A stretch of DNA of 64,000 nucleotides from Meira nashicola (Eukaryota; Basidiomycota; Exobasidiomycetes; Exobasidiales; Brachybasidiaceae): the NCBI GenBank assembly GCA_001600355.1, contig BCJU01000002.1, positions 3,162,001 through 3,226,000 of the forward strand. The letters are read 5' to 3'. Within the stretch, counting starts at the first letter, position 1. The number at the start of each line of letters is the position of its first letter. The translations under genes and the position numbers were made by a program. Under the pieces are notes generated by a model. It saw only the letters and a list, made by a program, of their open reading frames with translations, was not told the DNA's origin and ran no database searches. Shown here piece after piece: positions 58,152-59,330 of this stretch.

Positions 58152-59330
58152 TTATGCCAATGAGTCCGGTCGAATTGAATCGCGAACTCTACGGAAGAAG
58201 AGTGAAGCAGTTTCCGGCTTGAGTCCGATTTCATTTCCACGATATTGTTCAGGTAATCGTTCGATCAAAGCTTCGTCTGAGAGATGTTCTACGGGACCTA
58301 AGTAACGTAACTTGTCATTTGTTTTCGCAATTGAGACTGTCAGGACACCTTTGGGTACAGAAGCTGCACTCTTTTGTGCCTGTTTCTTTGCTTCGACATG
58401 TGCATTTGTACTTTCATATATGCTCACATTCCATTTGTTATTGTCAGAAATACTAATATCAATCCCACTGAGCGATTCAAGTAGGAATATTTTGGATTGA
58501 TATTCGCGTATTTGATCTTTCAACTTTGACAGTTCAAGATCCTTTTGTAATGTATTTCCTCTGACTTGATCTAACTCTGATTGAATAGAGCTCATGTTTA
58601 AACTGTGTCCTACTTGTTTGCTTGCGCCATTCTGTTTGCTGGTGACAGATGAAGAAGAATGCGATGGTGAACTAGGGCTTAGAACAGGCTCGTCCCAAGC
58701 TAATTTTTCTTGTCCATTTGTTCCTTCAGCATTCTTTCTATTATGAGAAACAAGCAAGAGATTAGGATCAGATTTATCAGAAGTTCTTATTTCTTCCCAA
58801 ATCTTTTTCTTATCGAAACCTTTCATCGCTTTATCAAAATCAAAATCTTCTTCTAAATCTGATTCTGCACTTGTGGTTGATTTTTTTCCTTTACCTGCTT
58901 TTCCAGTTTGTTTAGCGGGATTTATTTCTGGAGTTCCTGTTCGATTTCCTTTTTTCAAAGATTGTTTCTTTGGTATTCCTCTTTCGCTAAAAGATGCTTG
59001 CATTGCTGCCGGTGCAGTTGGAATTGGTTTTGCATGATGCTTTGGCATAGAAGGAGTTTGTGATCTACCATCTGAGCTAGACGATGTTCCTGCAGTAGCA
59101 TTTGCATATGAGATCACGGCAGGATCTGATGGGGGAGGTGGTGGTGGTGGGGCATTATCTACTATCTGTACATCGGCAATTTCTCCCCTGGTGATTGTTA
59201 TTCTTGATCCTGTTCCATCTTGTTCGATTGATAAACTTCCTGTATTTCCGTCAATGTGTATAATCTTTCCTTCCAAATCTCCACCTCTTTGCAATCGTAT
59301 AGATACCCTAGATCCTATAAAGGACGACAT
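58152..59330 (-). CDS. Edc3-like LSm-FDF protein with Csm1/Pcs1-like C-terminal domain
   Basis: One 392-residue single exon. Residues 1-60 are an Edc3-type LSm domain (FIGSRVSIRL, then ITRGEIADVQIVD), 60-70 are poly-Pro, and 158-198 form an FDF domain (EEDFDFDKAMKGFDKKKIWE, then LLVSHNR). These would place it in the mRNA decapping complex (P bodies), binding Dcp2-type partners. In place of the YjeF_N domain expected at the C-terminus of Edc3, residues 248-285 form a coiled coil and 280-386 look like the Csm1/Pcs1 globular domain: LLESLSGIDIS, RYLGPVEHL, ALIERLPEQYRGNEIGLKPE and FFRRVRDSI. The fold match is by pattern and could also be a Spc25-like RWD domain. The N-terminal half is well supported, the C-terminal assignment is moderate. 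Confidence 0.85.
   Translation of the reverse strand: MSSFIGSRVSIRLQRGGDLEGKIIHIDGNTGSLSIEQDGTGSRITITRGEIADVQIVDNAPPPPPPPSDPAVISYANATAGTSSSSDGRSQTPSMPKHHAKPIPTAPAAMQASFSERGIPKKQSLKKGNRTGTPEINPAKQTGKAGKGKKSTTSAESDLEEDFDFDKAMKGFDKKKIWEEIRTSDKSDPNLLLVSHNRKNAEGTNGQEKLAWDEPVLSPSSPSHSSSSVTSKQNGASKQVGHSLNMSSIQSELDQVRGNTLQKDLELSKLKDQIREYQSKIFLLESLSGIDISISDNNKWNVSIYESTNAHVEAKKQAQKSAASVPKGVLTVSIAKTNDKLRYLGPVEHLSDEALIERLPEQYRGNEIGLKPETASLFFRRVRDSIRPDSLA

Follow-up and report, generated by a model that had tools for sequence, protein, structure and literature searches.

In the decapping factor Edc3, the LSm domain binds leucine-rich motifs of Dcp2 and the FDF segment binds the helicase Dhh1/DDX6, and dimerisation through the C-terminal YjeF_N domain makes the protein bivalent and drives its condensation with Dcp2 (PMC8984151, PMC4320757). 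The YjeF_N domain also binds RNA and NAD(H) (PMC4059234). The monopolin protein Csm1 is a homodimer in yeast and works as a cross-linker that binds peptides at kinetochores and ribosomal DNA, its heads binding short acidic-FxF-basic peptides of Dsn1 (PMC6823300). Here we describe a gene of the basidiomycete Meira nashicola, found in a stretch of 64,000 nucleotides (the window; contig BCJU01000002.1, positions 3,162,001 to 3,226,000), in which the N-terminal domains of Edc3 are followed by a tail with a predicted Csm1-like fold. The gene occupies positions 58152-59330 of the window on the minus strand as a single uninterrupted frame of 392 codons from ATG to stop, and an intron is not required.

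The N-terminal half of the protein was assigned by both of its domains. The FDF domain was matched above the cut-off by Pfam PF09532 (E 4e-8, residues 159-233). The single sequence alone gave a weak LSm match that did not reach the cut-off (PF12701, E 0.039), and the N-terminus also gave a sub-cut-off match to DUF150_C, an SH3-like barrel (E 0.00067). With an LSm profile of 11 family sequences (alignment A4), the Schizosaccharomyces pombe Edc3 chains 4a54 and 4a53 were matched at 3.4e-7 and 6.6e-7; of the 45 matches, the one that followed was a ribosomal protein S1 domain at 0.0062. Edc3 chains also took the top three of the four matches of an FDF profile built from six regions (A5; 4a53 at 0.0004, 2wax at 0.0023 and 3d3j at 0.11), the fourth being one unrelated chain (0.27). 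No LSM14/Scd6 chain occurred among the matches of either profile. Scd6/LSM14 has in common with the window protein the layout of a decapping factor with LSm plus FDF. However, Scd6 is a separate gene here (contig C4), the only other FDF gene detected in the genome (17.9 Mb in 20 contigs searched), and it has RGG repeats and an LSM14 match of 1.3e-28, compared to 0.039 in the window protein, whose sequence has no RGG repeats. In these features the window protein does not fit the LSM14/Scd6 family. Judged by these profiles, its LSm and FDF domains are those of Edc3, as the preliminary description of this DNA had proposed for a single frame, and the FDF/FDK region is presumably the segment that binds Dhh1/DDX6. 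A scan against NCBIfam gave no match to the protein, and the Edc3 linker model PF16598 matched nowhere and is hence uninformative about it. Weak matches to PF02519 and PF12918 (E 0.017-0.05, below the cut-off) were attributed to chance.

The YjeF_N domain is absent. PF03853 matched neither the window protein nor any member of alignment A3 (11 relatives and pieces: seven sequences with FDF and tail, and four tail pieces). The tail is therefore not a variant of YjeF_N, and the earlier claim that this domain is missing holds. A canonical Edc3 was sought elsewhere in the genome, and only a NAXE-like YjeF_N protein and Scd6 were found. The former, on contig C1, is the one YjeF_N match detected in the genome; of its four PDB matches the nearest is the ApoA-I-binding protein (AI-BP/NAXE, 1.7e-52) and none is an Edc3 chain, and Pfam finds no LSm or FDF in it. 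In our view this protein is the NAD(P)HX epimerase and not an Edc3. Because the other FDF gene detected is Scd6 and the only YjeF_N protein detected is NAXE-like, the window protein is the sole Edc3 candidate that was found, and because it lacks the C-terminal YjeF_N domain we name it Edc3-like and not canonical Edc3. It shares with the Edc3 of S. pombe and human the Edc3-type LSm domain and the FDF/FDK segment in the same order, and its C-terminus presumably forms dimers as well, but in place of the Rossmann-type, NAD(H)-binding YjeF_N domain it has a coiled coil and an RWD-like head.

The tail was predicted to be a coiled coil capped by an RWD-like head with a Csm1-like fold. In the predicted model, the block means of the predicted local distance difference test (pLDDT) were 77-92 for the helix and the alpha/beta domain from residue 260 on, and 56-68 in the first part of the helix. 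Hydrophobic residues occupied 67% of the heptad a and d positions in 10 aligned rows (relative P0011 was dropped for gaps), compared to a shuffle mean of 46%, and this value was reached by 3 of 1000 shuffles. The coiled coil and the small alpha/beta domain that had been read from the letters can be seen in the model, and an RWD-type fold, the lack of which would have spoken against that description, is predicted. The three motifs it quoted sit at residues 283-293 (LLESLSGIDIS), 357-370 and 378-386 (FFRRVRDSI). Foldseek matched the model of the window tail to the Csm1 chains 5ktb_A, 5v1a_A, 3n4r_D and 3n7n_C with a probability of 1.00. In the VIA structure comparison, the top 12 entries were Csm1 for the models of both the window tail and the relative P0013, and in the best-fitting Csm1 rows the root mean square deviation was 2.4-2.9 A over 77-94 residues. 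Mad1 (4.7 A over 110 residues) and Spc24-Spc25 (4.1 A over 98) scored below Csm1 in the comparison made with the window tail. With the model of P0013, however, Csm1 was absent from the matches of Foldseek by itself, one reason why we do not argue for descent from Csm1. The window protein resembles Csm1/Pcs1 in its predicted layout, a long coiled-coil helix that leads into an RWD-like head, and Csm1 is the closest solved fold. They differ in that the window protein gives no significant sequence match to Csm1 and has LSm and FDF upstream, canonical Csm1 being a separate gene. In addition, the model has a helix between strands two and three (model residues 79-91), where the genome's own Csm1, judged by its sequence, appears to have no more than a short link. 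At the level of the predicted fold, these results support an Edc3 N-terminal half joined to a Csm1-like head. In a library of viral structures, the best match to the tail (E 3.8e-3) had a TM-score of only 0.25 and was unconvincing.

The arrangement is shared by other fungi. The first protein search gave 14 relatives, and FDF and tail occur together in seven of them (P0001-P0006 and P0011), which shows that the arrangement is neither due to chance nor peculiar to the gene model in the window. Six of the seven have the LSm domain too; the annotated P0005, from Exobasidium rhododendri (Exobasidiales), begins after it and is covered to 83% in BLASTP. All three parts are present in Meira miltonrushii (Exobasidiales), whose protein is 75% identical to that of the window, and in Tilletiaria anomala (Georgefischeriales). 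The window protein represents an Edc3 variant whose architecture is conserved across two orders of Exobasidiomycetes, and it is not an accident of one genome. The preliminary description had taken it for a natural fusion; LSm, FDF and tail do stand in one frame, but with two orders carrying them they are no one-off. A second search, which was fed by alignment A2, gave no match from Ustilago or mushrooms, but this is uninformative in that scoring was limited to the 7993 candidates with the most words in common.

Some of the relatives contain one half only, as would be expected if two neighbouring genes, one for a piece of Edc3 and the other for a small coiled-coil protein, had been mis-joined in the window. 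The N-terminal half alone was found in P0008-P0010, P0012, the doubtful P0014 (E 0.08) and P0016, and the tail alone in P0007, P0013 and P0015; P0015 and P0016 came from the second search. However, in the six N-terminal calls the alignment breaks off directly behind FDK..IW.EI, the three tail calls start at this point or a few residues beyond, and P0011 has an insertion there, whereas the annotated Exobasidium and Tilletiaria genes are joined across the site. Because the half-only calls break at the same site and P0011 has its insertion there, we infer that the relatives have an intron at this point, which prokaryote-style gene callers read through. The segment across the joint (DP..LLVSHNR and GQ.KL..EPVLSP) is among the best conserved, and a conserved stretch that spans the joint argues for one gene. 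With an uninterrupted frame in the window, and with FDF and tail together in half of the first 14 relatives, including annotated genes of three named species, a mis-joined model is very improbable and can be considered largely refuted. The N-terminal proteins were used in alignment A1, in A2 except P0014 and P0016, and in A4 except P0014, but in no alignment of the tail; P0014 was left out of A2 and all later alignments. Near-duplicates were omitted as well (P0003 from A4, A5 and A7, and P0002 from A5).

We consider it probable that the window protein is a rebuilt Edc3, in which a coiled coil and a Csm1-like RWD head stand in place of the YjeF_N domain and keep the bivalent layout. In the Edc3 of these smut-related fungi, the YjeF_N dimerisation domain would have been replaced by the coiled coil and the RWD domain, and the fold suggests that these would form a parallel homodimer. 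By analogy with Edc3 biology, the two LSm domains of each dimer would grip leucine-rich motifs in the Dcp2 tail, and the two FDF segments would recruit the helicase Dhh1. The bivalent layout needed for decapping complexes and processing bodies (P-bodies) would be kept, and the NAD(H)- and RNA-binding of the YjeF_N domain would be lost. Dimerisation, partners and any function or phenotype are thus what we infer from the fold and from known Edc3. Six LLxxL/I motifs follow the catalytic part of this genome's Dcp2, in 615 residues of the frame read, so that a partner for the LSm domain is present. On the simplest view, dimerisation would have passed to the tail, leaving the logic of the scaffold unchanged and the NAD(H) function gone.

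More than one origin is conceivable for the tail. It is possible, if rather doubtful, that it belongs to another RWD-headed coiled coil, such as Spc25, the C-terminal part of Mad1 or a new branch, and was independently acquired as a generic dimeriser that resembles Csm1. The Mad1 C-terminal domain and Spc24/Spc25 have a coiled coil plus RWD-like head, a layout that the tail may share. However, Csm1 leads both VIA comparisons, with a lower deviation than Mad1 or Spc24-Spc25, and PF08234 (Spc25) and PF05557 (Mad1) were absent at E<=10 from the window protein and the 11 sequences of A3. In comparison, these Pfam models give strong matches to Mad1 and Spc25 of the genome itself; together with Dsn1 the two are separate genes, and for Spc24 the genome gave sub-cut-off matches only. 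That the tail is instead a true descendant of Csm1, with the peptide cavity kept, seems unlikely to us. Such a tail would connect the scaffold of decapping with a ligand of the Csm1 type, for which Dsn1-N-like or other acidic-FxF-basic peptides are candidates, or would pair with Csm1 itself. In favour of descent are the leading place of Csm1 in both VIA comparisons and a register in hhalign that agrees with the structural end points: the first and third alignments pair the domain ends (LRYLGP/LVYTPT and EIGLKPETASLFF/SIRFERATSVKFM), and the trimmed alignment covers nearly the entire domain, with LLESLSGIDIS opposite LYEDLTGLMIN. The residues at the presumed cavity position and the Dsn1-N-like segment of this genome's Dsn1, both described below, also speak for it.

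However, these profile alignments of the tail family with the Csm1 family are weak. The P values were 0.012 (local) and 0.0016 (global) with the first alignment, 0.061 with the trimmed one and 0.01 with the third; 23 of 300 column shuffles scored at least as high as the trimmed alignment, and a reversed profile did nearly as well (15.0 compared to 16.6). We treat the similarity as not significant. PF12539, the Pfam model of Csm1, found no match at E<=10 in any of the 11 sequences of A3, whereas the genome's own Csm1 on contig C1 matches it at 5.6e-9, and BLASTP of the tail against that Csm1 frame gave chance matches only (best E 1.8). The tail profile found only one unrelated chain in the PDB by sequence (E 4.8), but this comparison has little power because a Meira-type Csm1 (P0017) itself finds no Csm1 chain by phmmer. 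A single-sequence search of the genome gave no paralogue of the tail, and a canonical pair of Csm1 and Dsn1 is already there. Because Pfam gives no match and shuffles reach the score too often, we describe only the fold of the tail as Csm1-like and make no claim on its descent. The preliminary description had held that the tail fits Csm1/Pcs1, which agrees with the predicted fold but not with descent, and the profile comparison that it proposed aligned in the expected register without becoming significant. A separate Csm1 gene, for which it had suggested to look, is present elsewhere in the genome, as are Spc25 and Scd6. Among the Csm1 sequences, P0026 from Tilletia horrida is a predicted Csm1 joined to another domain (PF12539 and PF00838), the latter presumably the TCTP domain, and P0029 is another T. 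horrida Csm1 without it. The joining in P0026 is probably a merged gene model, and the TCTP part was removed before the first Csm1 profile for hhalign was made.

The tail could also be a peptide clamp beyond its presumed role as a dimeriser. All 11 rows have I, M or L at the tail position that would correspond to the key cavity residue of Csm1 (L161 in Saccharomyces cerevisiae, I241 in S. pombe), if an offset of about 22 holds; this equivalence was taken from the end points and not from an alignment. Dsn1 (MIS13) of the genome (region C3:2547173-2547829) has an N-terminal segment, GDDGFIFSNVNPTVNAKGKGK, like the Csm1-binding motif of Dsn1-N, with DDGFIF and lysines further on. Because of this segment, monopolin recruitment is probably intact in this fungus. 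It is quite unlikely, in our view, that Edc3 lost YjeF_N and gained a Csm1 head in which the binding of FxF-type peptides has survived and which docks onto Dsn1-like motifs or onto the FDF of Edc3, Scd6 or Pat1. The head might bind FDF segments because an acid-flanked FDF followed by lysines resembles the acidic-FxF-basic motif of Dsn1-N. If this were true, mRNA decay would be linked directly to the kinetochore or nucleolus, or else the protein would be a P-body cross-linker that regulates itself.

Because the YjeF_N domain has several functions, in dimerisation and in binding RNA and NAD(H), its apparent replacement is a natural separation-of-function experiment. If fungi with the tail-bearing Edc3 still form P-bodies and decap normally, bivalency would be what Edc3 must supply, and the link to NAD(H) would be optional. 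The domain exchange could show which part of the job of Edc3 is merely to hold two copies together. The Csm1-type head would, in addition, have been put to yet another use. Among the matches listed from the open-access literature, no title or abstract opening linked Edc3 or decapping in this sense to Csm1, monopolin or RWD domains, or reported a swap of YjeF_N in Edc3, fungal, basidiomycete and Ustilago contexts included. Edc3 and Csm1 were mentioned together only in a doxorubicin screen, and monopolin, RWD, Csm1 and fusion led to kinetochore papers. No paper there combined Edc3 with the lineage names or dealt with such a protein under decapping and RWD domain, and monopolin was not among the best matches for processing bodies and decapping.

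Features of the Edc3-like gene in the window, with residues of the protein
Feature	Positions	Strand	Basis
Whole gene frame, 392 aa	58152..59330	-	BLASTP coverage 98-100% with P0001-P0004, P0006 and P0011
LSm domain, Edc3 type, residues 1-57	59160..59330	-	LSm profile A4 of 11 sequences
Pro/Ser/Lys-rich low-complexity linker, presumed disordered, residues 58-156	58863..59159	-	Sequence; poor conservation in the alignment
FDF/FDK motif region, residues 157-219, with conserved tail to GQEKL..EPVLSP	58674..58862	-	PF09532; profile A5
Short Ser-rich linker, residues 220-245	58596..58673	-	Sequence; pLDDT <50 at 230-233 and 235-243
Long single helix, predicted coiled coil, residues 246-288	58467..58595	-	Helix 17-59 in the model; heptad count
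RWD-like alpha/beta domain, predicted Csm1-like fold, residues 289-386	58173..58466	-	

Several genes surround the Edc3-like gene in the window. A gene for a Cys-rich, by eye probable membrane protein with one intron (57434-58098, plus strand) lies tail to tail with it and ends only about 55 bases from its stop codon; the first part of this neighbour had no Pfam match at E<=0.01. A scan for bacterial promoters and terminators found no more than in shuffles, and such a scan is inapplicable in a fungal host. On the other side, a uL11-like ribosomal protein gene, also recognized by eye (MSKKGGAAVAAQMVKLIVPAGKASAQPPVGPALGARG...) and apparently with one intron (59624-60138, plus strand), is divergent and starts about 300 bases upstream. 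Further away on the minus strand are a Vps18-type gene with an open frame of 1258 aa (53507-57283; PF05131, E 8.4e-83) and a frame of 485 aa with a match to the MMM1 family (60258-61715; PF10296, 3.9e-10), which we take to be probably Mdm12.
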